64,000 nucleotides of DNA, taken from contig NZ_JAMOIC010000004.1 of NCBI RefSeq assembly GCF_024448895.1, positions 62,001 to 126,000 on the forward strand, in the 5' to 3' direction. This DNA comes from Stutzerimonas stutzeri. Lineage in GTDB: Bacteria; Pseudomonadota; Gammaproteobacteria; Pseudomonadales; Pseudomonadaceae. Positions 8,900 through 25,663 of this stretch are shown in pieces. The notes below the pieces were generated by a model. It was not told the origin of the DNA and made no database searches. It was given only the letters and a program-made list of their open reading frames with translations. Within the stretch, counting starts at the first letter, position 1, and every line of letters begins with the position of its first letter. Position numbers and translations under genes: made by a program.

Positions 8900-9736
8900 A
8901 TGGCTGCAATCGGGCGCTTCAACAGCCTGCAAATCGTCAAGCACACCGGTTTCGGTCTCTATCTCGATGGCGGTCCGGATGGCGAAATTCTGCTGCCCAA
9001 TCGTTACATCCCGAAGAACACACCCACCGAGGTCGACGATTGGCTGAACGTGTTCATCTATCTCGACAGCGAAGACAAGCTCATCGCAACCACCGAGAAG
9101 CCGAAGGTCCAGGTGGGGGAGTTTGCCAGCCTCAAGGTTGTCGAAATCAATCGCATCGGTCTGTTCCTTGACTGGGGCCTGCCGAAGGACCTGCTGCTGC
9201 CTCACTCGGAAGAGAAACGGCCGCTCAACGAGGGCGACTACTGCGTCGTTCACGTTTATCTCGACAAACACACTCGCCGCATCACCGCCACTGCGCGCCT
9301 GGATCGATACCTCGACAAGACGCCCGCGCGATACAAGGTGGGCGAGGCTGTTGAGCTGCTGGTCGTCGAACCGACTGACCTCGGCTACAAGGCAATCATC
9401 AACGGCAAGCACTGGGGCCTCATTCACAAGAACGAGGCATTCAAATTTCTGCGCGGTGGGATGAATGAGAAGGGCTTCATCAAGGAAGTCCGTGCGGACG
9501 GCAAAATCAGCCTGAGCCTGCAGCCTGTCGGCAGCGAAGCCGGAGATGCTTTGCAGGCGTTGATCCTGCAGAAGCTTCAGGAAAACGATGGCAGCCTGTC
9601 GGTCGGCGACAAGACGCCAGCGGACGAGATTGCAGGGCTGTTCGGCGTGAGCAAGGGAAACTTCAAGAAGGCCATTGGCGGCCTGTACAAGCAGGGTCGT
9701 ATCGTCATCCACCCGGATCGTATCGAACGCGCCTGA
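8900..9736 (+). CDS. CvfB-like S1-domain RNA-binding protein
   Basis: A 278-residue protein with three S1-like beta-barrels in series followed by a winged-helix C-terminus, the CvfB/YitL layout. S1-1 begins MAAIGRFNSLQIVKHTGFGLYLDGG, S1-2 begins VQVGEFASLKVVEINRIGLFLDWG, and the third covers KVGEAVELLVVEPTDLGYKAIINGKHWGLIH. The final segment IAGLFGVSKGNFKKAIGGLYKQGRI is the helix-turn-helix. The family binds RNA and affects virulence genes in staphylococci; its role in Pseudomonas is not established. A GC-rich hairpin follows the stop. Confidence 0.88.
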   Translation: MAAIGRFNSLQIVKHTGFGLYLDGGPDGEILLPNRYIPKNTPTEVDDWLNVFIYLDSEDKLIATTEKPKVQVGEFASLKVVEINRIGLFLDWGLPKDLLLPHSEEKRPLNEGDYCVVHVYLDKHTRRITATARLDRYLDKTPARYKVGEAVELLVVEPTDLGYKAIINGKHWGLIHKNEAFKFLRGGMNEKGFIKEVRADGKISLSLQPVGSEAGDALQALILQKLQENDGSLSVGDKTPADEIAGLFGVSKGNFKKAIGGLYKQGRIVIHPDRIERA

Positions 9737-9743
9737 CTGGCGA

Positions 9744-9764
9744 GGCAGGAGGCAATCTCCTGCC
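9744..9764. terminator. 8-bp stem hairpin after the CvfB-like gene
   Basis: GGCAGGAG and CTCCTGCC pair perfectly around a 5-nt loop just after the stop. There is no U-tract, so this is a weak terminator or an RNA-stabilising hairpin. The rest of the 310-bp gap up to rfaH shows no gene I can support; a promoter for rfaH is expected there but no clear -35/-10 pair stands out. Confidence 0.5.
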
Positions 9765-10046
9765 GCGTGCCTGAATACTGCGGCGTCGCCTCAGTGCCGT
9801 TCCCCTCCCGAAGCTTGCAGCTCTCTGCACCACCGAAAGTCAATTGCACGCTCTGTCTGGATGCGCTTCAGGCAGATCGCTGTCAGCGCTCAAAGGCTCC
9901 AAACCCGACCGCCCGTCATTTCCAGAATGTTGCCAGTTGTTACGGGCGGGAACTCTGCTGGATCGATCTGGGTCCAGAGAGGGCGCTTGATATCCGATAA
10001 GGAAAGTCGGCTCAGTTATTTCACCGGATGTGTACTCGGAGAAGCT

Positions 10047-10577
10047 ATGGAAAGTGAAACGGGATTGCCGGCGAAATTCTGGTATCTGCTGCAGTGCAAG
10101 CCTAGGCAGGATGCACGTGCACTGGAGCACCTGGAGCGACAGGGTTTCGAATGTTACGCACCGGTGTACCAGGTCCAGGCGATCAGCACCGGAAAGTTGC
10201 GAGTAAAGGAACAGCCATTGTTTCCGGGCTATGTATTCATTCGCATGGGGATCGAAGACAGCTGGCTGGCGTTGCGCTCCACGCGCGGAGTCAATCGTGT
10301 CGTCGCCTTCTGCGGTCAGCCTTGTCAGGTGCAGGACGCCATCATTGATCACCTCCAGCGCCGCTGTGCGATTGCAGGCACGCAGCGAATGTTGAGCCCT
10401 GGTGATCGAGTGAATATCCAGATAGGTGAGTTCGCAGACATGGAAGCGATTTTCCTGTCCATGGAAGGAGAAGAGCGGGTGATGTTGCTGTTGAGCGTCC
10501 TCAATCGCCAGCAACGAGTTCAGGTGCGCCTGGCCCATATCCAGCCCGTCTCACAGGGCGCTGTTACGCCTCTCTAA
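10047..10577 (+). CDS. rfaH: transcription antitermination factor RfaH
   Basis: A 176-residue NusG paralogue. The ATG at 10047 is used because WYLLQCK, the universal RfaH start, follows within a dozen residues; the frame is open 124 codons further but that part is non-coding in character. The NGN domain shows EHLERQGFECYAP, QPLFPGYVFI and TRGVNRVVAF. The C-terminal KOW domain shows SPGDRVNIQIGEFADMEAIF and EERVMLLLSVLN. All are close to E. coli RfaH. RfaH binds RNA polymerase paused at an ops site and suppresses Rho termination. An exact ops lies about 120 bp downstream of its stop, in the leader of the EPS operon. Confidence 0.96.
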   Translation: MESETGLPAKFWYLLQCKPRQDARALEHLERQGFECYAPVYQVQAISTGKLRVKEQPLFPGYVFIRMGIEDSWLALRSTRGVNRVVAFCGQPCQVQDAIIDHLQRRCAIAGTQRMLSPGDRVNIQIGEFADMEAIFLSMEGEERVMLLLSVLNRQQRVQVRLAHIQPVSQGAVTPL

Positions 10578-10678
10578 CAAGAAATCAGTGATCCCGTTTT
10601 CCTAGCTATACCTGCCAGCGCCGACCGGTTCGTCGAGCGTGAGGATAGTTGCGTTTTTGCACTGCCAACAATTCATTA

Positions 10679-10692
10679 CAGGGGGCTCCCTG
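10679..10692 (+). promoter_or_regulatory. leader hairpin abutting the ops element
   Basis: CAGGG and CCCTG pair perfectly around GGCT, ending one base before the ops element begins. A nascent RNA hairpin here would form just as polymerase reaches the pause site. Confidence 0.6.
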
Positions 10693-10693
10693 G

Positions 10694-10705
10694 GGCGGTA
10701 GCGTG
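10694..10705 (+). promoter_or_regulatory. ops element for RfaH recruitment (JUMPstart core)
   Basis: The sequence GGCGGTAGCGTG matches the enterobacterial ops pause element exactly, preceded by CTGGG, close to the CAGGG found before ops in JUMPstart leaders. It lies 188 bp upstream of the first EPS gene, on the same strand, and downstream of rfaH. RfaH binds the exposed non-template ops hairpin. The remaining leader to 10881 holds no supportable gene; the ORF running through it has no ribosome site and no family likeness. Confidence 0.9.
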
Positions 10706-10881
10706 CCTGAAGCGCTGACTACGAGGGACTTTCCAGCCATTTTTGAAGCGGACCATTCATCGATTCTGCAACTGTCCGGGATATTTGCGGTCTGTTGCGT
10801 GTCTATGCCACCTCACAGAAGCCAGCGTCGCGGCCGGAGTCGAGGCATGAACAATAATTTATCTCCGAGAAGGGATTCCAT

Positions 10882-12039
10882 ATGAGGAAGATCACACTTC
10901 CAGGTGTATCGCTACTGTGCGTCGTGTCCACCAACAGTTGGGCCGTGAACGAACCACAGGACATTCGCATCGGTAATTTCGAATTCACGCCTACGCTGAT
11001 CGTGCGCGAAAGTTACGACGACAACTACCGTGGGCTGGCGGATAACGAGCAGGCGTCCTGGGTGACGGGGATTAACCCGACCTTTCTGCTAGGGACCGGC
11101 AATCGCAACAGCGAGTACGAGCTCGAGTACTCCTTCAATAGCGACATCTTTCATTCGGACTCCGAAGCCAGCAACACCGACCACCACCTCAATCTCAGAA
11201 GCGTCATGGAGTTCAACTCCCGCAACCGCCTGAGCTGGGGGCTAGGCTATCACCGCGTCGAAGAGACGGCCGACACCGAAGACAACACCGAGAACGACAA
11301 GTACAGCAGTGCCATTGCCCGCGCAGCGTACCGTTTCGGTGCTCAAACGGCGCGCAACCAGCTTGAGTTCGGTACTCATTACGAGCAGCGGCGCTACCAC
11401 AACAGCGGCAACATCAACGCGTCCGAAGAGCGCGACAGCCTGATGTTCAACTCGATCTGGTTCCATCGTCTGGGGGCCAGAACGCGTTCGCTGGTGGAAG
11501 TGCGCCACACCGATCACGACTACAAGCTTTCCAGCGCACTGCGCGACAGTACCAACGTGGCTTTGCTTGGAGGCGCGACCTGGAACGCTACTGCCAAAAC
11601 ATCGGGCAGCTTCAAGGTGGGTGCCGAACGCAAAGATTTCGACAGCGATCAACGTGAGGACTTCACCAGCCCGATGTGGGAGGCGAATGTCACCTGGAAA
11701 CCTCGCACCTATTCGGCTTTCAACCTGACGTCACGTCGCGCGTTCGACGAAGGTAACGACGGTGCCAGCACCATCAATGACTGGACGACACTGGCCAGCT
11801 GGGAACACGAGTGGACTTCGCGCATCGCGACGGAGCTTAAGTACCGCTTCTCCGACCGGGAGTACGAAGGCATTAATCGGGACGATGAAAGAACGGCCTA
11901 TGGTGCCGGGCTGATCTGGTCACCGGACCGCTGGATCGACGTAACGCTGTCGTATCTCAGAACGGAAAACGACTCCAGCCTGGCCTCGGAGAATTACGAC
12001 AGAAACGTTTACCTGCTGAGTTTCGACCTGAGCCTCTGA
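10882..12039 (+). CDS. outer-membrane beta-barrel protein, EPS export porin (BBP2-like)
   Basis: A 385-residue protein with a signal peptide (MRKITLPGVSLLCVVSTNSWA) followed by repeated amphipathic strands with alternating aromatic and polar residues, typical of an outer-membrane barrel of about 16-18 strands. The C-terminus ends in NVYLLSFDLSL, an aromatic/Leu-ending beta signal. It begins the ops-led operon and sits just ahead of a Wza-like protein that lacks a membrane-crossing end. This suggests it forms the outer-membrane pore for the polysaccharide, as beta-barrel partners do in some myxobacterial and methylotroph EPS systems. Function is inferred from fold and position. Confidence 0.85.
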   Translation: MRKITLPGVSLLCVVSTNSWAVNEPQDIRIGNFEFTPTLIVRESYDDNYRGLADNEQASWVTGINPTFLLGTGNRNSEYELEYSFNSDIFHSDSEASNTDHHLNLRSVMEFNSRNRLSWGLGYHRVEETADTEDNTENDKYSSAIARAAYRFGAQTARNQLEFGTHYEQRRYHNSGNINASEERDSLMFNSIWFHRLGARTRSLVEVRHTDHDYKLSSALRDSTNVALLGGATWNATAKTSGSFKVGAERKDFDSDQREDFTSPMWEANVTWKPRTYSAFNLTSRRAFDEGNDGASTINDWTTLASWEHEWTSRIATELKYRFSDREYEGINRDDERTAYGAGLIWSPDRWIDVTLSYLRTENDSSLASENYDRNVYLLSFDLSL

Positions 12040-12082
12040 GGCCAGGAAGGACGTAAAAACAGTGCCTAAGGAGGAGCCGAGC

Positions 12083-12616
12083 ATGCGCATCCCAAACATC
12101 TACAAAATTTTTTCCCTGTTGATTCTATTGGTCTTCAGTGCCGCTGCCACTGCCGCTCAATATGAGTTGGGTTCTGGCGATGTGGTACGCATCAGCGTGC
12201 ACGGCGAGCCGGATCTGTCTTTCGATGAGATACGCCTGACCGATGCCGGGACCTTCACCTTTCCGTTCATTGGTGAAGTCGACGCGAACGGCAAAACGGC
12301 TGGGCAGGTTCGGGCGCTGCTGACCGAAAAACTCAAGGACGGTTATCTGATCGATCCGCGCGTCTCGGTTTCGGTAGTTAATTACCGCGAGTTCTACATC
12401 GCCGGTGAGGTCAAGCTTCCTGGCGGCTATCCCTATCAGCCGGGTCTTACCCTGGATCGGGCGATCGCCCTGGCTGGTGGGTTGACCGAACGCGCTTCAA
12501 CCAAACGCATGACAATTGTGCGTGGCTCCCAAGGAAGCCGAGCCGAAGAAAAAGCCACCATGAACACTCTTGTTCGCCCTGGTGACACGATCAACATCGA
12601 CGAAGGATTCTTCTGA
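12083..12616 (+). CDS. periplasmic polysaccharide export protein (short Wza-like, PES/SLBB)
   Basis: A 177-residue export protein. The start at 12083 follows TAAGGAGGAG. It has a Sec signal peptide (KIFSLLILLVFSAAATAA) but no lipobox Cys, then a PES domain (YELGSGDVVRISVHGEPDLS) and one SLBB-like domain (REFYIAGEVKLPGGYPYQPGLTLDRAIALAGGL). E. coli Wza is twice as long, is a lipoprotein, and ends in the amphipathic helix that crosses the outer membrane. All three features are missing here. It probably stacks under the preceding beta-barrel. The stop overlaps the Wzc start (TGATG). Confidence 0.9.
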   Translation: MRIPNIYKIFSLLILLVFSAAATAAQYELGSGDVVRISVHGEPDLSFDEIRLTDAGTFTFPFIGEVDANGKTAGQVRALLTEKLKDGYLIDPRVSVSVVNYREFYIAGEVKLPGGYPYQPGLTLDRAIALAGGLTERASTKRMTIVRGSQGSRAEEKATMNTLVRPGDTINIDEGFF

Positions 12617-14814
12617 TGAATAGCCCAGTTCGCCCGGATCGTCCGTGGCAGCGCCCCGTAGGGCCAGCAACGGATAGCGACTTTATAGACCTGAAAAAAA
12701 TCTGGCATGCGATCTGGTCGCGCAAGTGGGGCATCATCCTGCTAGTGGCCGTAATCGGCTTGTTGGCTGCCTTCTTCGTGTCCCGCATTACGCCGACTTA
12801 CCAAGCTGTGGGCACGGTATTAATCGAGACCAAAGGTACGCCGGTACTTTCTTTCCAGATGCCGGATGCGCCTAAAGAGATCAGCGAATACCTGCAGACC
12901 CAGCTCAGCCTCATGCAGAGTCGAGGTGTGGCGCAGCGTGTTGTTCGTGACCTGACTCTTATCGAGCACCCTGAGTTCGACCTGCGTCAGCAGCCCAAGC
13001 CACTGATCGACACCGGCGCCATCAAGCGGATGTTCACGGGTAAGGAAGTTGAGCCGCCGACTGAAGCAGAACTCATGGACTACGCAACCCAGCGGTTCAT
13101 GGACAGCACCAGCGTATGGGTAGAAGGTAAAAGTCAGCTGGTCTATCTGTCGGTTTCCATGGCCGACAGCCTGACCGCTGCACAGGCGACTAATCAGCTG
13201 GCGCAGGCTTATATCGAGGCGCAGCTGGAAGCCAAGGTCGATATGTCCATGACCGCGGCCAGCTGGATGAATGATCGTCTGGTGTCCCTGCGTGAAAATC
13301 TGCAGGCATCTGAAGACCGTTTTCAGGCCTATTTGGACGCTGAAGGTCTGGTAGATCTGGATGGCGTGGGCACCATCAGTGCCAACGAACTTTCCCTTAC
13401 CGGAGACCGCATGATCGATGCGCGTCGTCAGCGCGCCGAGGCTGAAAGCCAGTACCGTCAGGTTGAGTCCATGCGCAGTCAGGGTTGGGAGCGTCTGGCC
13501 AGTGTGCCGGCTGTTCTGGGTCACCCCTTGATTCAACAGTTCAAAGCCGATCAGGCTCATGCCCGGTCGCGCGTAGAAGATCTGTCGCGTCGTTACGGCG
13601 ATCGTCACCCGTCAATGGCTTCGGCACGTTCCGACCTCAATGCCGCAACGGCGAGCTTGCGTCAGCAAGTCGAGCAAGTTGTCGCGAGCATCGAGCGTAA
13701 CTATCAGTTGGCCTTGGCCAATGAGAACTCGCTGCGTGCTTCGTTTGATGAAAACAAGGACCGCATCCAGGATATTTCCCGCAAGGAATTCAAGGTGCGC
13801 GATCTGCAGCGCCAGGTCGAAAGCGACCGCGCGCTGTATGAAACCTTCATGACCCGACTGCAGGAAACCACAGCGACTTCGGACCTGAGCACGACCAACG
13901 CGCGCATTGTCGACGCGGCTATCCCGCCGACTGTCCCCGCGGCGCCCAATGTGCCGCTGATCATGGCTGTGGTGCTGTTCCTTGCACTGATCCTGGGTAT
14001 CGCTCAGGCAATCATCCGCGAGATTCTGGACAACACCTTCAAGAGCTCCGAAGAGGTTGAAAGCAAGCTGAACCTGCCAGTGATGGGCATCGTTCCTCAG
14101 GTGCCTCGCAAGTTGCGCAAAGAAGTCAGTCACTTGTTCGAACGCAGCGGTGACAAGCGCTTTTGCGAGGCGGTACGCACCATCCGTACCAACCTGCTGT
14201 TGAGCGAAACCGGCCAGCCGCGCCAGGTACTGGTGATCACCTCAACCGCTCCCGGTGAAGGTAAGAGTTCGGTATCGGCCAACCTCGCCTTTGCGATGGG
14301 TCAGCTGCACCGCGTTCTGCTGATCGATGCGGACCTGCGTCGTGCAACGCTGGACAAGGCATTCGACTTCAAGCCGGGCACCCCGGGGCTGGTCAACCTC
14401 ATCGCTGGCAACGCCAAGCTTGAGGATTGCGTTCACACCGTGGGCAATGTCGACATGATCGCCGCCGGCGCCGTGCCGTCCAACCCGTTGGAGCTGCTGT
14501 CCTCGCCACGCTTCGCCAAGCTGCTCGAAGTGGTCAAGGGTCGCTACGACCGCATCATCATCGACTCTCCGCCAAGCCAGGCGGTCAGTGATGCTGCCGT
14601 ACTCTCGACGCTCGCCGATGCCGTGATCTACGTCGTCAAATCCGACAGCACATTGATTCCGCACGTGCAGAAGGGCGTAAGCCAGCTGCAGAACAGTAAC
14701 GCACCGGTAACAGGTGTCGTGCTCAATCATGTCGATATCGATAAAGCCAAGAAGAACGGTCAGTTCCGTGGCTACTACGACCATTACGGATACAGCGAGC
14801 AACAAACGGTCTGA
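12616..14814 (+). CDS. polysaccharide co-polymerase / BY-type tyrosine autokinase (Wzc-like)
   Basis: A 732-residue inner-membrane protein. An N-terminal membrane segment (GIILLVAVIGLLAAFFV) leads to a Wzz-type periplasmic domain with long coiled coils, and a second membrane segment (NVPLIMAVVLFLALILGIAQ) precedes the cytoplasmic kinase. The BY-kinase motifs are Walker A near residue 545 (APGEGKSSVS), Walker A' (LLIDADLRR) and Walker B (RIIIDSPPS). The tail YYDHYGYSEQQ is the expected tyrosine cluster for autophosphorylation. It sets polymer length and drives export with the PES protein. Adjacent PES, barrel, ugd and wzx make a Wzx/Wzy-dependent system. Confidence 0.95.
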   Translation: MNSPVRPDRPWQRPVGPATDSDFIDLKKIWHAIWSRKWGIILLVAVIGLLAAFFVSRITPTYQAVGTVLIETKGTPVLSFQMPDAPKEISEYLQTQLSLMQSRGVAQRVVRDLTLIEHPEFDLRQQPKPLIDTGAIKRMFTGKEVEPPTEAELMDYATQRFMDSTSVWVEGKSQLVYLSVSMADSLTAAQATNQLAQAYIEAQLEAKVDMSMTAASWMNDRLVSLRENLQASEDRFQAYLDAEGLVDLDGVGTISANELSLTGDRMIDARRQRAEAESQYRQVESMRSQGWERLASVPAVLGHPLIQQFKADQAHARSRVEDLSRRYGDRHPSMASARSDLNAATASLRQQVEQVVASIERNYQLALANENSLRASFDENKDRIQDISRKEFKVRDLQRQVESDRALYETFMTRLQETTATSDLSTTNARIVDAAIPPTVPAAPNVPLIMAVVLFLALILGIAQAIIREILDNTFKSSEEVESKLNLPVMGIVPQVPRKLRKEVSHLFERSGDKRFCEAVRTIRTNLLLSETGQPRQVLVITSTAPGEGKSSVSANLAFAMGQLHRVLLIDADLRRATLDKAFDFKPGTPGLVNLIAGNAKLEDCVHTVGNVDMIAAGAVPSNPLELLSSPRFAKLLEVVKGRYDRIIIDSPPSQAVSDAAVLSTLADAVIYVVKSDSTLIPHVQKGVSQLQNSNAPVTGVVLNHVDIDKAKKNGQFRGYYDHYGYSEQQTV

Positions 14815-14838
14815 TCCGGCTCGCTCCTTTGGTCACTT

Positions 14839-14869
14839 GATCAGGTCCCGCCTCAGTGCGGGCCTGATC
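14839..14869 (+). terminator. strong intra-operon hairpin between wzc-like and ugd genes
   Basis: GATCAGG-TCCCGC pairs with GCGGGC-CTGATC around a short loop. The following bases are only moderately T-rich (GGTTTGATTCT). It could be a partial terminator inside the operon that RfaH-modified polymerase reads through, or an RNA processing/stability hairpin. The rest of the 154-bp gap shows only the ugd ribosome site region. Confidence 0.55.
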
Positions 14870-14968
14870 CGGTTTGATTCTGCCAAGCAAGAGAATTCTG
14901 TGCCGCCGGCCACCGAAAGGGCCGCGTCGAGGCACGCCTGTATTAATGTCTAAATCGAGGATCCTGCT

Positions 14969-16315
14969 ATGAACATCACCGTCGTTGGAAGCGGCTACGT
15001 TGGGCTGGTAACCGGTGCCTGTATTGCGGAAATGGGCAACACGGTTTACTGCGTCGACGTCGACAAGTCCAAGATCGAGAACCTCAAGCAGGGCATTCTG
15101 CCGATCTATGAGCCGGGCCTCGAAGAAATCGTCACCGAGAATCATGCCTCCGGCCGTCTCCTGTTCACTACCTCGCTGAGCGAGGCCGCAGAGCAGTCCG
15201 AGGTCTACTTCATCGCCGTCGGCACGCCGCCTGGCGAGGACGGTTCAGCTGACCTGCGCTATGTCCTGGAAGTCGCACGCCAGATTGGCGACACCATGAC
15301 TGGCCCTGCCATCGTGGTGAACAAGTCGACTGTTCCGGTTGGCACGGCAGATCTGGTGCGTGCAGCGGTAACCGAGCGGCTCGAAGCTCGCGGTGCCGAC
15401 ATCGCGTTCTCGGTTGTCTCGAACCCGGAATTTCTAAAGGAAGGTGCAGCGGTCAATGACTTCATGCACCCGGACCGTATCGTCATCGGTGCGGACAACG
15501 AGCACGCCCGTCAAGTCATGAGCGCGCTGTACGCCCCCTTCATTCGTAATCGTCCGCGCACCATGTTCATGGGCATCCGCGATGCGGAAATGACGAAGTA
15601 CGCCGCCAACGCCATGCTGGCGACGAAGATCTCTTTCATGAACGAGATTGCCAGTCTCTGTGAGCGTCTGGACGTGGACGTTGAGAATGTTCGTCTGGGT
15701 ATCGGCTCGGACGAGCGAATCGGCTACCACTTCATCTATGCCGGTTGCGGCTACGGTGGTTCTTGCTTCCCGAAGGACGTCAAGGCGCTGATCAACATCG
15801 CCCACCAGAACGACTTCGAACCCAAGTTGCTGCAGGCCGTGGAATCCCGCAACGATCAGCAGAAGCATTCGCTGTTCAACAAGATCAACGCGCATTTCAA
15901 TGGTGATCTCAAAGGCCGCACCTTTGCCGTCTGGGGTCTGGCGTTCAAGCCCGGCACCGATGACATGCGCGAGGCGCCGAGCGTCGTGCTGATCAACAGT
16001 CTGATCAATGCGGGCGCCAAAGTTCGCGCATTCGACCCGGTTGCCCGTGAAACCGCGCGCAAGGAATTCCCGGAAAGCTGGTTTGCCGATGGTCGTCTGC
16101 AGATCGTCGAAGGCCAGTACGAAGCGGCGATCGATGCCGATGCACTGTTCCTGGTCACTGAATGGAAGCCGTTCCGCCGTCCGGATTTCCGCGCGCTCAA
16201 GCGTCTGCTGAACACCCCGCTGATCGTCGATGGCCGTAACCAGTACGACCGTGAGCAGGTGAAGCAGGAAGGCTTCAGCTACTACGGCATCGGCCGTCAG
16301 CCGGTTCACGCCTGA
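14969..16315 (+). CDS. ugd: UDP-glucose 6-dehydrogenase
   Basis: A 448-residue cytosolic enzyme that oxidises UDP-glucose twice to UDP-glucuronate using two NAD+. The N-terminal NAD motif GSGYVGLVTGACIAEMG is present, the catalytic Cys is at residue 266 in GYGGSCFPKDV, and the C-terminal domain carries GLAFKPGTDDMREAPS. All are canonical. It supplies an acidic sugar to the EPS, or a precursor for its derivatives. It lies in the same direction as the export genes, separated from them by a hairpin-bearing 154-bp gap, and is followed after 14 bp by the flippase. Confidence 0.97.
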   Translation: MNITVVGSGYVGLVTGACIAEMGNTVYCVDVDKSKIENLKQGILPIYEPGLEEIVTENHASGRLLFTTSLSEAAEQSEVYFIAVGTPPGEDGSADLRYVLEVARQIGDTMTGPAIVVNKSTVPVGTADLVRAAVTERLEARGADIAFSVVSNPEFLKEGAAVNDFMHPDRIVIGADNEHARQVMSALYAPFIRNRPRTMFMGIRDAEMTKYAANAMLATKISFMNEIASLCERLDVDVENVRLGIGSDERIGYHFIYAGCGYGGSCFPKDVKALINIAHQNDFEPKLLQAVESRNDQQKHSLFNKINAHFNGDLKGRTFAVWGLAFKPGTDDMREAPSVVLINSLINAGAKVRAFDPVARETARKEFPESWFADGRLQIVEGQYEAAIDADALFLVTEWKPFRRPDFRALKRLLNTPLIVDGRNQYDREQVKQEGFSYYGIGRQPVHA

Positions 16316-16329
16316 GCGAGGGGCTGCGA

Positions 16330-17697
16330 GTGAGCGCCATCGACCAGCCCAGCGTGACACGCGGTGCGTCCTCGTTTCGAGAACGGCTGACCGCTCTATT
16401 GCAGGGAAGCATACGCAGCAAGCTGTTGCGCAATATCGTCACCGTGGTAAGCGGGACCGCCGGCGCGCAGGCGCTGACGCTGGCGTTCATGCCGGTGATC
16501 ACGCGCATCTACGGTCCGGAAGCGTACGGGATACTCGGCACCTTTCTCAGCGTCACCATGATGCTGATTCCAGTGGCGGCGCTGACATATCCGATCGCTA
16601 TCGTGCTGCCCAAGCGCGATGGTGATGCGCGCGGGCTGGTTCGGTTGGGGCTGGCCATCGCGTTGTCGTTGTCGATCGTGGTGGCGCTTGGGCTGCTGTT
16701 CTTCGGCGATCAGCTGGCAGCAACGCTGGAAATCGAGATCATCCAGCCGTACCTGATGCTGATTCCGTTCGTGATGTTCTGCGGTGCCGCGTTGGAAATA
16801 TGCCAGCAATGGCTGTTTCGTACACAGCGGTTCCGTATCACGGCAAGCGTGGCGGTAGGGCATTCGCTGCTGTTCAACACGATGCGGACGGTGGCCGGTC
16901 TGCTGCAATCGTCGGCGCTGGTTCTGGTCTGCACCACTGCGCTGCAGCAGGCCTTGCATGCCGCCATGCTGGGGCTTGCAATTCTGCGGGCGAAGCCGCG
17001 TGTAGAAGAACATACCGACGAGGCACAACAGCCCGAGCCGGGCATGCTCGAGATGGCACGTCGGTACAACGACTTTCCCCAATATCGTGCGCCAGTGATG
17101 CTGATCAATGCGATCTCGCAGCATCTGCCAACTTTGGTGCTGGCGGCTTATTTCGGTCCCGCGGCGGCAGGATTCTTCGCACTGTGCAAACAGGCGCTGA
17201 CCATGCCCACCAACCTGATCGGCAAGTCTGTTGCAGACGTCTATTACCCGCGTATCAGCCGTGCAATCCATGACCGTGAGCCCGTAGCAGCAATGTTGCT
17301 GAAGGCAACCACTGCGCTTGGGCTTGTCGGCCTGGTTCCGTTCGCCATCGTCGCCGTTTTCGGCCCCTGGCTGTTCGCGACGGTGTTTGGCGAGCAATGG
17401 CAGGTAGCGGGGGAGTACGCGCGCTGGTTGGCGCTGGCTGAATTCGCGGTGTTCATCTCGCGTCCTTCAGTGGTGGCTGTGCCGGCTCTTTCTCTACAGG
17501 CACGTTTCCTGCTGTTTGAAGTCTTCAGCACCAGCCTGCGCCTGGTTGCGCTGTTTGGCGGCGCTGTTTTGCTGGGTGATGCCCTGGCCACGGTTCAGGC
17601 GTTCGCGGCCGCCAGTATCGTGATTTATCTGTCGCTGGTGGTAATTGTCATGATCGCGGCGCGACGCTGGTATGCGCGCCAACAAGGGCCTGTCTGA
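16330..17697 (+). CDS. lipid-linked repeat-unit flippase (Wzx-like)
   Basis: A 455-residue integral membrane protein with 12-14 predicted helices. It begins at a GTG preceded by GCGAGGGG. The opening after a short cytoplasmic tail, IVTVVSGTAGAQALTLAFMPVITRIYGPEAYGILGTFLS, is typical of the Wzx/polysaccharide-transporter families. It is expected to move undecaprenyl-PP-linked repeat units across the inner membrane. Close to ugd upstream (14 bp) and a glycosyltransferase downstream (33 bp). One of three flippase-like genes in the window and the most likely partner of the Wzy-like protein. Confidence 0.92.
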   Translation: MSAIDQPSVTRGASSFRERLTALLQGSIRSKLLRNIVTVVSGTAGAQALTLAFMPVITRIYGPEAYGILGTFLSVTMMLIPVAALTYPIAIVLPKRDGDARGLVRLGLAIALSLSIVVALGLLFFGDQLAATLEIEIIQPYLMLIPFVMFCGAALEICQQWLFRTQRFRITASVAVGHSLLFNTMRTVAGLLQSSALVLVCTTALQQALHAAMLGLAILRAKPRVEEHTDEAQQPEPGMLEMARRYNDFPQYRAPVMLINAISQHLPTLVLAAYFGPAAAGFFALCKQALTMPTNLIGKSVADVYYPRISRAIHDREPVAAMLLKATTALGLVGLVPFAIVAVFGPWLFATVFGEQWQVAGEYARWLALAEFAVFISRPSVVAVPALSLQARFLLFEVFSTSLRLVALFGGAVLLGDALATVQAFAAASIVIYLSLVVIVMIAARRWYARQQGPV

Positions 17698-17729
17698 GAC
17701 GGCTCGCAATCTAATTCTGTTCGAGTGGT

Positions 17730-18902
17730 ATGGATTCACCTATGACAGCAAACCTCCCCACCATTGTCGTCATCGGCTACAACAGGCCGAAGAGCCTCAC
17801 GCGTCTACTGGATTCCTTGAGCAAGGCCCACTATCCGGAGGGCGAGATTCGTCTGGTCATAAGCCTGGACAACTCCGGCACGCTGGAACCGCTAAGGGTT
17901 GCCGAAGCCTATCCATGGACGCATGGTGAGAAGCGCGTCATCCATCGCGAGAAGCGTATGGGGCTTCGCAATCACGTACTGGCCTGTGGCGACCTTACCG
18001 AGGAGTACGGCGACGTCATCGTGCTCGAGGATGACCTGTTCGTTTCGCCATTCTTCTACGAATACACGGCGCAGGCGTTGAGCTTCTACGCCAGCGATTC
18101 GCGCATTGCCGGCATCAGCTTGTATAGCCAGCAATTCAACCAGACTGCCAATCTGCCGTTCACGCCCATCGATGACGGGAACTCGGACATCTATTTCATG
18201 CAGCTGGCGGCGTCATGGGGGCAGGCCTGGTCGCGCTCGCATTGGCAGGGATTCCGCCAGTGGCTTGAAGCCAACGGCACCGACATCAGTCGTGTCGATG
18301 GCATTCCTGGCGATATTCGCAGCTGGCCGGAATCATCGTGGCTCAAGCTCTACAACGCTTACATCATCAGTCACGACCTGTACTTCGTGTATCCCTATCG
18401 CTCGCTGACCACGAACTTCGGTGATCCGGGCGAGCATTTCTACATTGCTTCATCGCGCTTCCAGGTAGCGATCCAGCAGCAGCGGATGGACTACCACTTT
18501 CCGTCCTCCAGTGAATCGCTGGCCATCTACGACGCTTTTTGCGAGCTGTTGCCGGCTACGGTCAAACGCCTGAATCCCAAGCTCGCCAGCCATGACTTCA
18601 CCGTCAACCTCTTTGGCTGCAAGGAATGTCGCAGCGGGCTGCAATTGACCCGCACGACCAAGCCAGGCTTGCACAATTTCAGCCTGTCAATGAAGCCGAT
18701 GGAGCTGAGCGTCCTGCACGACGTGGTGGGTGAGGGCATTGCCCTGATCGATACGGCCGAGGTGGATACCGCAGCGCTCAACGCAGCGCGTACGCAGTAC
18801 GACACGTACCGTTTCTTCTACAAGTTTCCGTCTGTGCCGGTGATCTGCGTCGGCTTCCTTGAGCGCCTCCAGATGATGATCAAGAGCGCTCGGTCGAGCT
18901 GA
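17730..18902 (+). CDS. glycosyltransferase (GT-A fold, GT2/GnT-I-like)
   Basis: A 390-residue enzyme. The N-terminus TIVVIGYNRPKSLTRLLDSL is the nucleotide-sugar strand-helix of GT-A enzymes, and DVIVLEDDLFVSPFFYEY contains an EDD motif like the DxD metal site of GnT-I type enzymes. The middle has SWGQAWSRSHWQGF, as seen in glycosyltransferases of bacterial glycan loci. No membrane segment is predicted. A second possible start is ATG at 17742. It sits between wzx and gmd, so it is likely to use GDP-fucose, GDP-mannose or UDP-glucuronate, but the donor is not readable from the sequence. Confidence 0.87.
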   Translation: MDSPMTANLPTIVVIGYNRPKSLTRLLDSLSKAHYPEGEIRLVISLDNSGTLEPLRVAEAYPWTHGEKRVIHREKRMGLRNHVLACGDLTEEYGDVIVLEDDLFVSPFFYEYTAQALSFYASDSRIAGISLYSQQFNQTANLPFTPIDDGNSDIYFMQLAASWGQAWSRSHWQGFRQWLEANGTDISRVDGIPGDIRSWPESSWLKLYNAYIISHDLYFVYPYRSLTTNFGDPGEHFYIASSRFQVAIQQQRMDYHFPSSSESLAIYDAFCELLPATVKRLNPKLASHDFTVNLFGCKECRSGLQLTRTTKPGLHNFSLSMKPMELSVLHDVVGEGIALIDTAEVDTAALNAARTQYDTYRFFYKFPSVPVICVGFLERLQMMIKSARSS

Positions 18903-18952
18903 CCTTCGACCTGGACCCACTCTTCTCAACAGCCTTGAACAGGTAAACGAAT

Positions 18953-20077
18953 ATGGAACGAAAAAAAGCGTTGATCACCGGTATTACCGGTCAGGACGGG
19001 TCCTATCTGGCCGAGTTCCTGCTGGAGAAGGGCTACGAAGTGCATGGCATCAAGCGCCGCGCTTCGTCGTTCAACACCCAGCGGGTCGACCACATCTATC
19101 AGGACGCCCATGTCGACAATGAGAACTTCGTTCTTCACTACGGCGACCTTACGGATTCGTCCAACCTGACCCGCATCATCAAGGAAGTGCAGCCCGATGA
19201 GGTGTACAACTTGGGCGCGCAATCCCACGTAGCAGTGAGCTTCGAGTCGCCCGAGTACACGGCCGACGTCGATGGTATGGGTGCGTTGCGCATCCTCGAG
19301 GCCATCCGCCTGCTGGGCCTGGAAAAGAAAACCCGCTTCTACCAGGCCTCCACCTCCGAACTCTACGGTCTGGTTCAGGAAACACCGCAGAAGGAAACCA
19401 CGCCGTTCTACCCGCGCTCGCCTTACGCAGTGGCCAAGCTCTACGCCTACTGGATCACCGTGAACTACCGCGAAGCCTATGGCATGTACGCCTGCAACGG
19501 CATCCTGTTCAACCACGAATCGCCGCGTCGCGGCGAGACGTTTGTGACGCGCAAGATCACCCGTGGCCTGGCGAACATCGCCCAGGGTCACGAGAAGTGC
19601 CTGCACATGGGCAACCTCGATGCGCTGCGCGATTGGGGCCACGCCAAGGACTACGTCCGCATGCAGTGGATGATGCTGCAGCAGGAGACCGCTGAAGACT
19701 TCGTCATCGCCACCGGCGTGCAATATTCGGTTCGCGAGTTCATCAAATGGTCGGCTGCTGAACTTGGCGTCCAATTGAGCTTCGAAGGCAGCGGAGTGGA
19801 TGAGCGTGCGATCGTCGCCAGCATCGAAGGAGACAAGGCACCGGCGCTGAGCGCTGGTGACGTCGTCGTTCGCATCGATCCGCGCTACTTCCGTCCGGCG
19901 GAAGTGGAAACACTGCTCGGCGATCCGAGCAATGCAAAGAACAAGCTGGGCTGGACACCGGAAATCAGCGTGCAGGAAATGTGCGCCGAGATGGTTCGCG
20001 AAGACCTGAAGGTCGCCCAGCGCCACGCCCTGCTCAAAGAGCACGGCTTTGAAATTCCAGTGAGTGTGGAGAACTGA
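18953..20077 (+). CDS. gmd: GDP-mannose 4,6-dehydratase
   Basis: A 374-residue SDR-superfamily enzyme that turns GDP-D-mannose into GDP-4-keto-6-deoxymannose with bound NADP. Clear signs are the glycine-rich start [19 protein letters not shown], the STSELYG segment with catalytic Thr/Ser and Glu, [10 protein letters not shown] carrying Tyr and Lys, and [21 protein letters not shown], which is a Gmd hallmark. Length is normal. The downstream Fcl start follows after 2 bp, so the two steps to GDP-L-fucose are translationally linked. GDP-mannose itself must come from genes elsewhere. Confidence 0.98.
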
Positions 20078-20079
20078 AT

Positions 20080-21048
20080 ATGAATCGTGACGCACGTATT
20101 TTCGTTGCGGGACATCGTGGAATGGTGGGCTCGGCAATCGTCCGCCGCCTGGAAGCGTTGGGTTACACCAATCTCATCACCCGCGGCCGTGAAGAGCTTG
20201 ATCTGGTCGATCAGGCCGCGGTGAATGCCTTCTTCGCCGAGAACAAGATCGATCAGGTCTATATGGCCTCTGCCAAGGTGGGCGGTATCCACGCCAACAA
20301 CACCTATCCGGCCGAGTTCATCTACCAGAACCTGATGGTCGAGGCGAACATCACCCACGCTGCGCACATGAATGACGTGAACAAGCTGTTGTTCCTCGGC
20401 TCATCGTGCATCTATCCCAAGTTTGCCGAGCAGCCGATGAAGGAAGAGGCCCTGGTGACCGGCGTACTCGAGCCGACCAACGAGCCGTACGCGGTCGCGA
20501 AAATTGCCGGCATCAAGCTTTGCGAGAGCTACAACCGCCAGTACGGACGCGACTACCGCAGCGTGATGCCGACCAACCTCTATGGTCCCAACGACAACTT
20601 TCATCCGGAAAACAGCCACGTAGTACCGGCGCTGCTCAAGCGTTTCCACGAAGCGACGCAGCGTGGCGACAACGAAGTCGTGATCTGGGGAAGTGGCAAG
20701 CCGCAGCGTGAGTTCCTGCATGTCGACGACATGGCGGCCGCTTGCGTGCATGTGATGGAACTGGATGATCAGACCTACCAGGCGCACACCCAGCCAATGC
20801 TTTCGCATATCAACGTAGGCACTGGCGTTGACTGCAGCATTCGTGAACTCGCCGAAACCATCGCTCGGGTCACCGAGTATCAGGGCGAGCTGAAGTTCGA
20901 CAGCACCAAGCCGGATGGCACGCCACGCAAGTTGATGGATGTCTCCCGCCTCAAGAAGCTGGGTTGGCAATCGACCATCAGCCTAGAAGATGGTTTGCGC
21001 GACGCTTACCGTTGGTTTGTCGAGAACCAGGACAAAGCCCGGCACTGA
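20080..21048 (+). CDS. fcl: GDP-L-fucose synthase
   Basis: A 322-residue bifunctional epimerase-reductase that converts the Gmd product to GDP-L-fucose using NADPH. The N-terminal motif is [18 protein letters not shown], and the signatures [32 protein letters not shown] and [15 protein letters not shown] (with the catalytic Tyr and Lys) are all present. It follows gmd after 2 bp. Together they predict fucose, or another 6-deoxy sugar from the shared intermediate, in the EPS. After this gene the composition becomes more AT-rich. Confidence 0.98.
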
Positions 21049-21347
21049 CACATCGCAGCGACGTGCCTATCGCGCGTCGCTGCCATTGGAGCTGGTCAGG
21101 TTCATACGGATTATGAGTACCTCGAACTCTTCCTCAGCACCAAAGGTTGTGCATAAGGATGCATGGATTGCAGCGCAATGATCGTAGGGGGCAGCACCGC
21201 TAGGCTTCCGAAGAAGGGACTTTTTCGGGCTTCGTGTTGTCCATCCATGGCACGAATATCCTGGGCGGCGCGATCCGCCTGGGGAGGCCGCGGCCCTGCG
21301 GGTCATTTCGTTCTTAGCTACGTCAACTAGGATATTGGAGATAGCGC
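21049..21347. other. 299-bp intergenic module boundary with gene-fragment-like sequence
   Basis: No full gene is found. A 22-codon frame at 21113-21181 encodes PKVVHKDAWIAAQ, which recalls the start of DUF899 (thioredoxin-like) proteins, then stops; it may be a remnant or chance. A GGCGG-CGCGAT-CCGCC hairpin lies near 21272. Base composition changes across this gap from GC-rich to more AT-rich. Confidence 0.4.
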
Positions 21348-22631
21348 TTGTTAAGGAAAGTTCTGGCGTACAAGAATCTACTGTTCATCCTGTTTCTGCT
21401 CAACTCCGCCTGCTTCTTTTTGACGGATGACAAGCGAGCCGGGATTCCGTATCTGCGCGAATTGTTTTTGCTTGTGGTGCTTGCAGCCACTGCTTGCCTA
21501 TTCGTTGCGTGGCGATATGTTTATCAGTCCAAAACGTCGCTGTGGATCATCTTCATGGGGGTTGCGCTCCCGCTCATTTCAGCGACGCTTGCATACCTCA
21601 ACTTTGGTCAGCCACTTGCTTATGGGCTGTTGGAAGAGCGCCGGTTTTTCGAATACCTGGTGTTTTTCCCGACACTGTTTCTTTTGATAATGGCAAAACC
21701 CACCGAAGAAGAGGTAGGGAACTACTTTTTATACGTTGCGCTGATTTGTGCGACGGTTGGCTTCATGTATTACCTCGGTATTATTCCGACAAATACGGTG
21801 GCGTCCTTTACGGTAGATGACTGGACTCAATACGAAGATCTATTGCGACCTGATCGTTATCGGATTGGTTCTGCATTCGTCACGATTTCGGCATTCATGT
21901 TGATGTACAAAATGAAGGAGCGTATCACTGCTGCGCACTTCTTCATTCTTCTCTATTTCGTAGCTTATTTGTGGCTGGTCATGCAGACCCGTCAGACCAT
22001 GCTGGTCTGGGGCGTAGCGGGCCTGTGGATATTCCGCAAGCGCATCGATTCGCTGATGAAGATGACCGTTCTCGGCATCATTATGCTGGTGGTTTCTTAT
22101 TTCCTGATGCCAGAGTTTTATGTCGCCCAATATGAACGCTTCCACGCTTTGCTCTTCGAGGCAACGTCGGGCCCCGGCGTAAGGGATGTAACGGTCGCGA
22201 CGATTATTGAAGCGATCAGCAACAATAATTACATAGGCATGGGGGCACTTTCACTTCAATGGAATGGCGGTTTCTCCACCATATATAACTCGCATTTCTA
22301 TCTGTCCGACGTTGGTATCTTTGGTGTGTATTACCGGTACGGCTTCATGGCGCTTGCTGTATTGATGATCTATTACGGTGGTTACCTGTGGATCATGAGT
22401 CAGTGTCGAGACAAAGGAAGCCTGCTCTCGGCGATACGAATAGCGTTCATATTTGGCATGATGAACTTCATGCTATCCAACGGTCTGACGTTCGCAGGTG
22501 ATCTGTACGGGATGGCTGCTGCGATCTTCCTTTATTACGCCAAACTGCAAGCTGCGGATTCAACTTTGTCGAATAACTTGGAGCAGGTGAATTATGATCA
22601 ATTTCAGTATCGTAACTATAAACTGGAATAA
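21348..22631 (+). CDS. O-antigen ligase/polymerase-like membrane protein (Wzy candidate)
   Basis: A 427-residue polytopic protein with about 10-12 hydrophobic helices and one larger periplasmic loop (residues about 260-320) before a late pair of helices, the usual Wzy/WaaL layout. The start is a TTG at 21348 behind GGAG; no better ATG is near. Sequence is poorly conserved, as is usual for Wzy. It sits with wzx and a Wzc-type protein, so polymerase fits better than lipid A ligase. It is more AT-rich than gmd/fcl. Its last 38 bases overlap the next glycosyltransferase gene. Confidence 0.78.
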   Translation: MLRKVLAYKNLLFILFLLNSACFFLTDDKRAGIPYLRELFLLVVLAATACLFVAWRYVYQSKTSLWIIFMGVALPLISATLAYLNFGQPLAYGLLEERRFFEYLVFFPTLFLLIMAKPTEEEVGNYFLYVALICATVGFMYYLGIIPTNTVASFTVDDWTQYEDLLRPDRYRIGSAFVTISAFMLMYKMKERITAAHFFILLYFVAYLWLVMQTRQTMLVWGVAGLWIFRKRIDSLMKMTVLGIIMLVVSYFLMPEFYVAQYERFHALLFEATSGPGVRDVTVATIIEAISNNNYIGMGALSLQWNGGFSTIYNSHFYLSDVGIFGVYYRYGFMALAVLMIYYGGYLWIMSQCRDKGSLLSAIRIAFIFGMMNFMLSNGLTFAGDLYGMAAAIFLYYAKLQAADSTLSNNLEQVNYDQFQYRNYKLE

Positions 22632-23358
22632 TCTAGACGGCCTGAAGGACACTTACCGCAGTCTGCAAAAACAGACTTGCCGTAACTTTCGCTGGATCGT
22701 TATCGACGGCGCCTCCAAGGATGGCAGCGGGGAATGGTTGAGAGGCCTGGATGACCCCCAGGCTGAAATCACCATCGAACCGGACAAGGGTATTTACGAT
22801 GGCATGGAGAAGGGGCGCCTGCGTGCGGTCGAGGCTCCCGGTTATACGCTGTTCCTGAATAGCGGTGATGCGCTTGCTGACGCGAACGTGCTCGAGCGCA
22901 TTAGTAATGAGTTATCGAGCGCGGCTGTGGCCCCCAAGTTTGTTTACGGTGACTTTTACCGTAAAGACGAGGCCGGGGCATTGAAGCGCGTCGCCGCGCG
23001 ACCTATCGAGCGTGCCCCGCTGGGATTGCCCGCCAGTCACCAGACGATGTATTTCGAGAACGAGCGGCTGCGTCAATTCAAATTCAGATTGAACTACAGG
23101 CTGTCGGCTGATTACTGCCTGCTGCTGGAGTTTCTGCAGGGCCTGGACCTTCAGGCTGAAGTGCTCCAGTTGTCATTCCCTTTGTGTATCTTCGATACCA
23201 CGGGCGTTTCGCACAAGCGTCGTTTCGAGGCGATCCGCGAGGATATGGATATCAGAACCCGGATCTTGAATTATTCAAAGCCAAACGCATTGGCACTTTA
23301 CGTCCTGCACTACGTGCACACTCATACCAAACAATTGCGTGCGTCACTGGGCAGGTAA
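22594..23358 (+). CDS. family 2 glycosyltransferase (WcaE/WcaA-like)
   Basis: A 254-residue cytoplasmic GT-A enzyme. The N-terminus FSIVTINWNNLDGLKDTYRSL, the WIVIDGASKDGSGEWL segment and the EPDKGIYDGMEKGR segment are standard GT2 features also seen in colanic-acid transferases. The sequence FLNSGDALAD supplies the SGD/DxD-like metal site. Translation starts inside the Wzy-like gene (38-bp overlap), so it should be coupled. The donor sugar is unknown. Confidence 0.92.
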   Translation: MINFSIVTINWNNLDGLKDTYRSLQKQTCRNFRWIVIDGASKDGSGEWLRGLDDPQAEITIEPDKGIYDGMEKGRLRAVEAPGYTLFLNSGDALADANVLERISNELSSAAVAPKFVYGDFYRKDEAGALKRVAARPIERAPLGLPASHQTMYFENERLRQFKFRLNYRLSADYCLLLEFLQGLDLQAEVLQLSFPLCIFDTTGVSHKRRFEAIREDMDIRTRILNYSKPNALALYVLHYVHTHTKQLRASLGR

Positions 23359-23416
23359 ACATGAGCGGTTCTAGGATTTACAGAGCCAACAAGAGCTGGG
23401 CACAGGAGCGTGTTCG

Positions 23417-24391
23417 ATGAACTACCGAAGCTTGACTGATCTATCGCGGCTGAGCACTGAGTGCGGCAGCAAAATCCCGAATGATGTCGATCTGGTGGTC
23501 GGCATTCCTCGCAGTGGGATGCTTGTTGCGAGCGTTATCGCGCTCAAACAGAACCTGCCGCTGACTGATCTGTATTCCTTCTTGCGTAACGATGAACTCA
23601 AGAAAGGTAATACCCGCACCTACAAGCATGCGGAGCTCACCAAGCCACAGGACGCGATGAAGATTCTGCTGGTCGACGACAGCATCTCCTCAGCCAAATC
23701 CATGCGAGCGGCTGAAGAGCAGGTGAGAGCTGCATACAAAGGGACAGTCGTGACCATGGCGGTCTTTGCGGAAAAGCACAATCGCCATCATGTGGACCTG
23801 TACCTTGAGCTCGTTGAGCAGCCTCGAGTGTTCGAATGGAACATCATGCACCACCCGCTTCTGGTTCATGCTTGCCTCGATATCGATGGTGTGCTCTGTG
23901 TAGATCCGACTGAGGAACAGAATGATGACGGTCCTATTTATAGAGACTTCATCAGCTGCGCACGGCCGCTTTTTGTTCCCTCGGTAAAAGTAGCGCATCT
24001 GGTCACTAGCCGGCTGGAAAAGTACCGTGCTGAAACTGAGGATTGGTTGCAACGTAACGGCGTGCAGTACGGGACATTGCACATGCTAGATCTTCCAAGT
24101 GCGGAAGAGCGGCGGCGTTTGAATATTCATCATAAATTCAAGGCCGAGGTCTATGCCAAACATCCGCTGACGCGTTTGTTCGTAGAAAGCGAAGTCAGGC
24201 AGGCCATAGAGATCATGCGGATCAGTGGCAAGCCCGTGTATTGCATCGAGACAAATGAGATGTATGTGCCCGGTCAGGCTTATAACCTGAAAGCCAATAC
24301 CCTGCGCAAAACATACAGTCTGAAAGCAAAACTCATGAGGAAGTTGAAATCGGTGGTTGGCAGGCTCGCTCCGGCTGTGCCCATCAAATAG
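23417..24391 (+). CDS. phosphoribosyltransferase-HAD phosphatase fusion
   Basis: A 324-residue two-domain protein. Residues about 1-145 look like a type I phosphoribosyltransferase with the PRPP loop KILLVDDSISSAKSM (82-96) and an upstream VVGIPRSGMLVAS motif. Residues about 150-285 look like a HAD phosphatase with motif I CLDIDGVL (nucleophile Asp155, acid Asp157), motif II LVTSR, a conserved Lys near HHKFKAEVY, and acidic motif IV FVESEV. The tail is basic. It is the last same-strand gene of the ops operon, 58 bp after a GT2. Context suggests work on a PRPP-derived sugar rather than purine salvage; the exact reaction is inference. Confidence 0.85.
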   Translation: MNYRSLTDLSRLSTECGSKIPNDVDLVVGIPRSGMLVASVIALKQNLPLTDLYSFLRNDELKKGNTRTYKHAELTKPQDAMKILLVDDSISSAKSMRAAEEQVRAAYKGTVVTMAVFAEKHNRHHVDLYLELVEQPRVFEWNIMHHPLLVHACLDIDGVLCVDPTEEQNDDGPIYRDFISCARPLFVPSVKVAHLVTSRLEKYRAETEDWLQRNGVQYGTLHMLDLPSAEERRRLNIHHKFKAEVYAKHPLTRLFVESEVRQAIEIMRISGKPVYCIETNEMYVPGQAYNLKANTLRKTYSLKAKLMRKLKSVVGRLAPAVPIK

Positions 24392-25488: not shown

Positions 25489-25663
25489 TTTCACTGCCTC
25501 ATTCTGCTATCGGAAAAGCCGCTTTTACAGCTGCTTCGTTTGTCCGGTATTGGCGCGCAATGTTCACTTTTTCTGAATTCGGCACCGCCGGCATTCTACT
25601 CACTCAGATTTCCATGCATATTCGGATTCGGCGACGAATCGAAGAACTGATAGAGAAGCTCAT

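Follow-up and report, generated by a model that had tools for sequence, protein, structure and literature searches.

A putative local RfaH–ops circuit at an exopolysaccharide operon of Stutzerimonas stutzeri, and variation of the site, its reader and the leader RNA among the Pseudomonadaceae

The closest described relative of the locus considered here is the RfaH–ops/JUMPstart system of Escherichia coli, in which RfaH residues K10, H20, R23 and R73 contact ops bases, R16 and Q24 also take part in reading the element, and T68, N70 and A71 are listed among the ops-contacting positions as well (PMC5995543, in the part available to us). E48 is required for autoinhibition of the E. coli protein, according to the available text of PMC7593976 and PMC13015549, and the Rfam JUMPstart element is depicted as a hairpin only in the available part of Weinberg 2010 (PMC2864571). 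Regulator genes located inside the operon that they control include those of Bacteroides UpxY and Myxococcus TaA, whose mode of recruitment is called unknown in the available text of PMC7593976, whereas the locus described here has a canonical ops site. The Shewanella CL7 and other CL2–CL8 RfaH genes also lie near or in polysaccharide or exopolysaccharide (EPS) operons, and the available text of the same paper gives neither ops sites nor variants of them. An RfaH gene is likewise part of, or adjacent to, a polysaccharide locus of Pseudomonas stutzeri 273 (EPS273-M; PMC5532660) and beside LPS/surface loci in Azotobacter (PMC4465626), and the available text of these two papers does not mention an ops or leader element. 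Literature searches in which RfaH was combined with ops, JUMPstart, Pseudomonas or exopolysaccharide, and which mostly covered journals other than subscription titles, returned no title or abstract opening on the leaders reported here, and the Clade B variant, the Clade C protein–site pair and the covarying pseudoknot described below were not found in the literature searched.

We analysed a 64-kb stretch of S. stutzeri DNA, referred to here as the window. The locus resembles the E. coli system in having an RfaH family regulator that retains all six ops-reading residues (K10, R16, H20, R23, Q24 and R73) in our alignment, an identical 12-nt ops element, a hairpin in the register of the Rfam JUMPstart consensus and a polysaccharide target. 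It differs in that rfaH lies next to what appears to be its only target, the two probably sharing a transcript, in the sequence of the hairpin stem (CAGGG/CCCTG), in having a putative AlgU-like promoter, in the substitution of E48 by Q, and in the replacement of T68, N70 and A71 by A, R and S, respectively.

The rfaH gene (10047–10577, + strand, including the stop codon) encodes a 176-amino acid specialised NusG paralogue which scores 163 bits against NCBIfam TIGR01955 (cut-off 144.5) and 139 bits against NF006534 (cut-off 124), while its score against the UpxY antiterminator profile NF033644 (71.6 bits) is under the cut-off of 100. The start codon is ATG, with GGAGAAGCT just before it, and both the start and the ribosome site align among relatives, with GTG as the start in the other ten loci of the group that we call Clade A (the eleven genus orthologues, including the window). 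The protein had been predicted to carry both NGN and KOW domains and to match E. coli RfaH strongly. The NGN domain was recovered (PF02357) and no separate KOW match was found with Pfam, although the TIGR01955 alignment spans residues 12–163 and thus includes the C-terminal domain (CTD); similarity to E. coli RfaH is evident and not very high (92.8 bits, and 34–36% identity in structure alignments). RfaH-like proteins with 32–40% identity to the window RfaH are also encoded on six viral contigs from IMG/VR (L248–L253). The profile search identified one RfaH above cut-off in the 5.39 Mb genome from which the window is taken, and the only other match, at 54 bits (C46), is below cut-off and is presumably NusG.

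Residues I93, F130 and R138, which are associated with autoinhibition, are kept in the window RfaH, as is L142, and E48 is replaced by Q in ten of the eleven Clade A proteins, that of the window among them. The best AlphaFold2 model, made from an alignment of eight sequences and with a mean pLDDT of 71.6 (the remaining four models score 50–62), places helices in the CTD at residues 130–135 (block pLDDT 75) and 141–151 (82). The nearest PDB structures to this model are E. coli RfaH entries 5ond, 8pfg, 8pib and 2oug (TM 0.54–0.58 by query length), and the titles of 8pfg and 8pib name the autoinhibited state. The window RfaH is therefore predicted to be autoinhibited with a helical CTD, a prediction tempered by the shallow alignment of eight sequences and by E48Q. 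Because the predicted helical CTD is that of the autoinhibited state, the protein looks from the model to be cis-encoded yet ops-dependent, and would need ops even though it is encoded at its own target.

The ops element GGCGGTAGCGTG (10694–10705, + strand) is an exact 12-mer match, as the original prediction had it, located 116 bp after the rfaH stop codon, and is the only exact copy both in the window and in the 5.39 Mb genome. When two mismatches were allowed there were ten sites in the window compared to 8.0 in shuffled sequences, so only the exact copy is informative, which bears out the view that this is the sole convincing ops in the window. Across 56 genus genomes the exact 12-mer is no commoner than the reversed word, and the evidence for ops consequently rests in its position. 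Exact copies of ops lie 0–800 bp downstream of rfaH in 46 of 123 RfaH loci, which together span 2.3 Mb, while the reversed and complemented 12-mers were each found in none of the same loci over the same range. A chance match can be ruled out by position, and the rfaH–ops arrangement is not fortuitous. Within the genus, all ten RfaH proteins with 62–84% identity to that of the window are encoded beside an exact ops (eleven out of eleven with the window included), and in Clade A the site lies 89–119 bp after the rfaH stop. Loss of ops from close relatives with the same operon would have counted against a local rfaH–ops–EPS circuit, and the retention of the site in every orthologue strongly supports this part of the original prediction as far as conservation can.

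Downstream of ops, the remainder of the untranslated leader (10706–10881) is followed by a 13.5 kb run of EPS genes on the same strand as rfaH (10882–24391). The first gene behind ops encodes an outer-membrane beta-barrel protein (BBP2_2; PF10082; 10882–12039), and this is followed by genes for a Wza-like polysaccharide export protein (PF02563, PF10531; 12080–12616), a Wzz/BY-kinase chain-length protein (PF02706, TIGR01007; 12616–14814), a nucleotide sugar dehydrogenase of the UDP-glucose dehydrogenase type (TIGR03026, over cut-off; 14969–16315), a Wzx-like flippase (PF13440; 16330–17697) and a family 2 glycosyltransferase (PF00535; 17745–18902). The run continues with GDP-mannose 4,6-dehydratase (TIGR01472, over cut-off; 18953–20077), GDP-L-fucose synthase (NF047922, over cut-off; 20080–21048), a probable Wzy-like polymerase suggested by its hydrophobic sequence and position and having no family match (21348–22631), a WcaE-like glycosyltransferase (PF00535, with TIGR04009 below cut-off; 22594–23358) and, as the last gene, a phosphoribosyltransferase-domain protein (PF00156; 23417–24391). 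A CvfB-like S1 RNA-binding gene is located upstream of rfaH (8900–9736), and a convergent 350-amino acid ORF without an NCBIfam match (24442–25494) is found at the end of the EPS run.

The leader hairpin, CAGGG-GGCT-CCCTG (10679–10692, + strand), was identified from the Rfam JUMPstart alignment and its 3' arm stops one nucleotide before ops. The match to JUMPstart (RF01707) at 10677–10705 scores 24.6 bits against a gathering score of 35 (E 0.014 in 2 kb), and although it is the best in the genome it is sub-threshold there too (E 0.009), with no second match of E < 1. As in RF01707, a hairpin and then GGGCGGUAGCGUG are present at this site, and the leader would work like JUMPstart while not being an Rfam member by score. 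A hairpin precedes ops in all eleven Clade A loci; counted from ops G1, its best 3' arm ends at –2 in ten of them and at –3 in the other. The higher hairpin score class accounted for 82% of the Clade A loci and 21% of base-shuffled upstream controls, and since short hairpins are this frequent in shuffles, the conserved register is more telling than the stem.

Upstream of rfaH, we found a putative AlgU (ECF sigma) promoter by pattern match and conservation (GGAACT-C-N17-TCCAG; 9949–9977, + strand). This is the one match to the AlgU-like pattern in the window, where 0.06 would be expected, and GGAACT(C/G)-N16/17-TCCAG occurs upstream of rfaH in all eleven Clade A loci as conserved islands in diverged surroundings. 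The same pattern is found in none of 42 Clade B leaders, none of 34 other family loci with a downstream ops and none of the five Clade C and A-prime loci, and over all loci there are 13 occurrences on the rfaH strand (eleven of them the Clade A sites) versus four on the other strand. The AlgU consensus is given as GAACTT-N16/17-TCtgA in the available text of PMC10651043, and the window sequence GGAACTC-N17-TCCAGA is near enough to it for us to infer that this is a putative promoter of rfaH. Consensus scans of 9700–10900 found no sigma-70-type promoter and no intrinsic terminator, the rfaH–ops interval included, and a separate promoter between rfaH and ops may be beyond the reach of such a scan. 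Because the AlgU-like block is conserved and a terminator-like site is absent between rfaH and ops, the promoter, rfaH, hairpin, ops and EPS genes probably form one transcription unit.

RfaH was identified in 204 of 398 family genomes by profile search, and the 123 loci that we compared consist of 63 from the genus (64 matches less the truncated L108) and 60 more from the family (59 from the listed part of the 398-genome search plus L241, which was found separately); it should be noted that this set is not a random draw. An ops-like site lies within 800 bp downstream of rfaH in 50 of these loci, and in 49 an ops or variant is located 7–9 kb upstream with rfaH inside the operon. The remaining 24 have neither layout by the criteria used, and in at least six of them (L210, L219, L222, L234, L238 and L239) the element is 4–5 kb off on the other strand. 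The original prediction had considered an rfaH gene adjoining its own ops to be less usual; this was wrong for the Pseudomonadaceae, given the 46 loci with an exact ops within 800 bp, and judging from these sequences the layout is common in the family. A quick tree of the 123 RfaH proteins and E. coli RfaH separated the downstream-ops from the upstream-ops loci by a single change. Among the order genomes outside the family, those with positions for both RfaH and the leader element (G134, G174 and G236) have both on one strand, the element following the RfaH match after 88–105 bp. Leaders with two tandem ops-like sites 84–120 bp apart were seen at four loci (L131, L184, L185 and L188). Three RfaH genes, or three to four ops-leader elements, are found in seven genomes (G510, G548, G552, G449, G455, G476 and G238), which suggests that such genomes have both local and distant targets.

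Clade B comprises 47 genus loci in which rfaH is within the operon, and in 42 of these an ops-like site is located 7.6–9.3 kb upstream of the rfaH stop; EPS273-M, a gene within its locus, may also be of this inside type. The Clade B sites are GGCGGTAGCTTT (28 loci), the forms ending in CATT (8), the exact ops (2), and those ending in CTTG (2), GTTC (1) and CCTT (1), while among the five loci without a site are two truncated at contig ends and one with GGCGGTAGCTAT. Across the 123 loci, all 40 occurrences of the pattern GGCGGTAGC(A/T)TT on the strand of rfaH are at the Clade B position. A 4-bp hairpin is found at the ops edge of 30 out of 43 Clade B sites. In L115, for example, GGCGGTAGC(A/T)TT precedes the rfaH stop by about 8.3 kb, and a hairpin of the CGAC/GTCG type precedes many of the Clade B sites. 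In E. coli, ops G12 is needed for the U11 pause and not for recruitment (PMC5995543, in the available part), and by analogy Clade B may lean more on its RNA.

Clade C consists of three loci (L105, L106 and L107) with GGCGGGAGCGTG 80–81 bp after rfaH, and the site pattern GGCGG[G]AGCGTG corresponds to ops with T6 replaced by G. In E. coli this T6 flips into a pocket of H20, R23, Q24 and R73 (PMC5995543, in the available part), and all three Clade C proteins have N20 and E23. E23 is present in none of the 97 T6-type rows of our alignment (96 loci plus E. coli). A strict coupling of T6 and R23 can be rejected, as position 23 is N, K or L in eleven of these rows and it is only E23 that accompanies G6; H20N alone was also rejected as a marker of ops type since its distribution does not follow type. 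Clade C is placed with the clade of the window in a group of 15 rows (SH-aLRT 99%), and its branch is long, a situation in which quick trees can be misleading. It represents one evolutionary event with three members in the genus and sampled family, and a scan of 84,980 species returned one member. Because R23 is only loosely tied to T6 and the clade is a single event, we regard the protein–site pair as a candidate for natural altered specificity. We note that members of Clades A, B and C occur together in one genome, G050 (L098, L129 and L105, respectively).

Outside Clades A–C, there are 36 leaders downstream of rfaH that are close to ops, and 30 of them could fold into an H-type pseudoknot abutting ops with the pattern xYGTY - CT - CARGA - loop - RACRx - loop - TCYTG - G - ops (L190, L212 and L217 are examples). 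The alignment of these 30 (A1) was made after dropping L209, L231, L218, L223 and L224 as misfits and L229 as the same site as L194. In A1, 84.5% of the second helix cells pair and 24 cells are changed on both sides, with 0/500 shuffles reaching either value, while coarser measures were unremarkable (double-change pairs were reached by 40/500 shuffles and further pair types by 350/500). A covariance model built with the first helix only, which still carries second-helix sequence, had matches in 100 of the 398 family genomes and 13 of 19 genera, and in 19 of 293 order genomes, 16 of these being outside the family. A held-out set (A4), which shares no member with A1 and comprises 64 matches drawn from 61 sources, L294 and L318 being omitted because they overlap L285 and L309, has 80.9% of second helix cells paired and 34 double changes compared to 13.8 in shuffles (0/500), and these shuffle counts are not probabilities as the sequences are related and the model carries second-helix sequence. 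Further pair types were again unremarkable in this set (143/500 shuffles), one second-helix pair is C-G in 33, A-U in six and U-A in six, and the outermost pair is weak, being unpaired in 39 of 61. RNAalifold indicated that the ops RNA is an alternative partner for the 5' arm of the pseudoknot (98% and 94% of cells are able to pair in this way, and double changes number 0 and 1, respectively), and this pairing may be a later fold. The pseudoknot model had no match in the genome from which the window was taken, where the element is a plain hairpin, and titles returned by a full-text search for JUMPstart and pseudoknot were unrelated, apart from Weinberg 2010.

Taken from its sequence, the locus would probably operate as a self-contained elongation circuit. 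RNA polymerase would start at the AlgU-like promoter and transcribe rfaH first, and 116 bp past the rfaH stop it would reach ops and pause, as might be expected from the E. coli element. The nascent hairpin abutting ops could then stabilise the pause or block backtracking, and RfaH would be recruited with effect on the EPS genes. With a single RfaH above cut-off and a single exact ops, the genome looks to have one regulator and one target. It would be most surprising if RfaH acted mainly in trans on other operons with the EPS neighbourhood being incidental, as the single exact ops, the absence of a second JUMPstart match of E < 1 in the genome and the proximity of ops-like sites to rfaH in 50 family loci all speak against this; in its favour are relatives with extra elements far from rfaH (up to three per family genome, and four in one order genome). 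It is less credible still that the 12-mer is present by chance and that EPS is controlled only at initiation. About one exact copy is expected in a genome of this size and in the genus the exact word does not outnumber the reversed one, but neither control word recurs beside rfaH as ops does, nor would chance account for the hairpin that precedes ops in every Clade A locus.

The remaining alternative is that RfaH acts in cis without reading ops, as a constitutively open (monomorphic) protein loaded as it is made, leaving ops as a pause site or relic. Operon-linked RfaH is tied to monomorphic, ops-independent proteins in the available text of a 2026 preprint (PMC13015549), where seven of ten monomorphic and 17 of 212 metamorphic RfaH are encoded next to an operon, and Q at position 48 of the window RfaH would also fit. 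We nonetheless think this unlikely in view of the predicted helical CTD, the retention of I93, F130, R138, L142 and the six ops-reading residues, and the exact ops after rfaH in all eleven orthologues. Under the preferred reading of an ops-dependent local circuit, the lineage of the window looks like a set of exceptions to the operon-linked monomorphic pattern of that preprint.

For the family as a whole, we offer the tentative and rather doubtful proposal that the Pseudomonadaceae have parallel RfaH–ops pairs, each belonging to a separate polysaccharide operon and kept apart from the others by divergence of the signals (Clade A has the canonical ops, Clade B GGCGGTAGC(A/T)TT, and Clade C GGCGG[G]AGCGTG together with N20/E23), with the hairpin or pseudoknot as the second half of the signal. 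The circuit appears to work like that of E. coli RfaH–ops in a local layout, and its relatives vary in site, reader and RNA. RfaH is little understood beyond the enterics, and in this lineage many species have an apparently autoinhibited RfaH encoded at its target, where the ops is canonical, and the site occurs in natural variants, as does the pocket that reads it. It thereby becomes possible to test how the specificity of RfaH changes and whether encoding in cis and dependence on ops exclude each other, and the RNA pseudoknot, if real, would add an RNA part to a recruitment signal which is read mainly as DNA.
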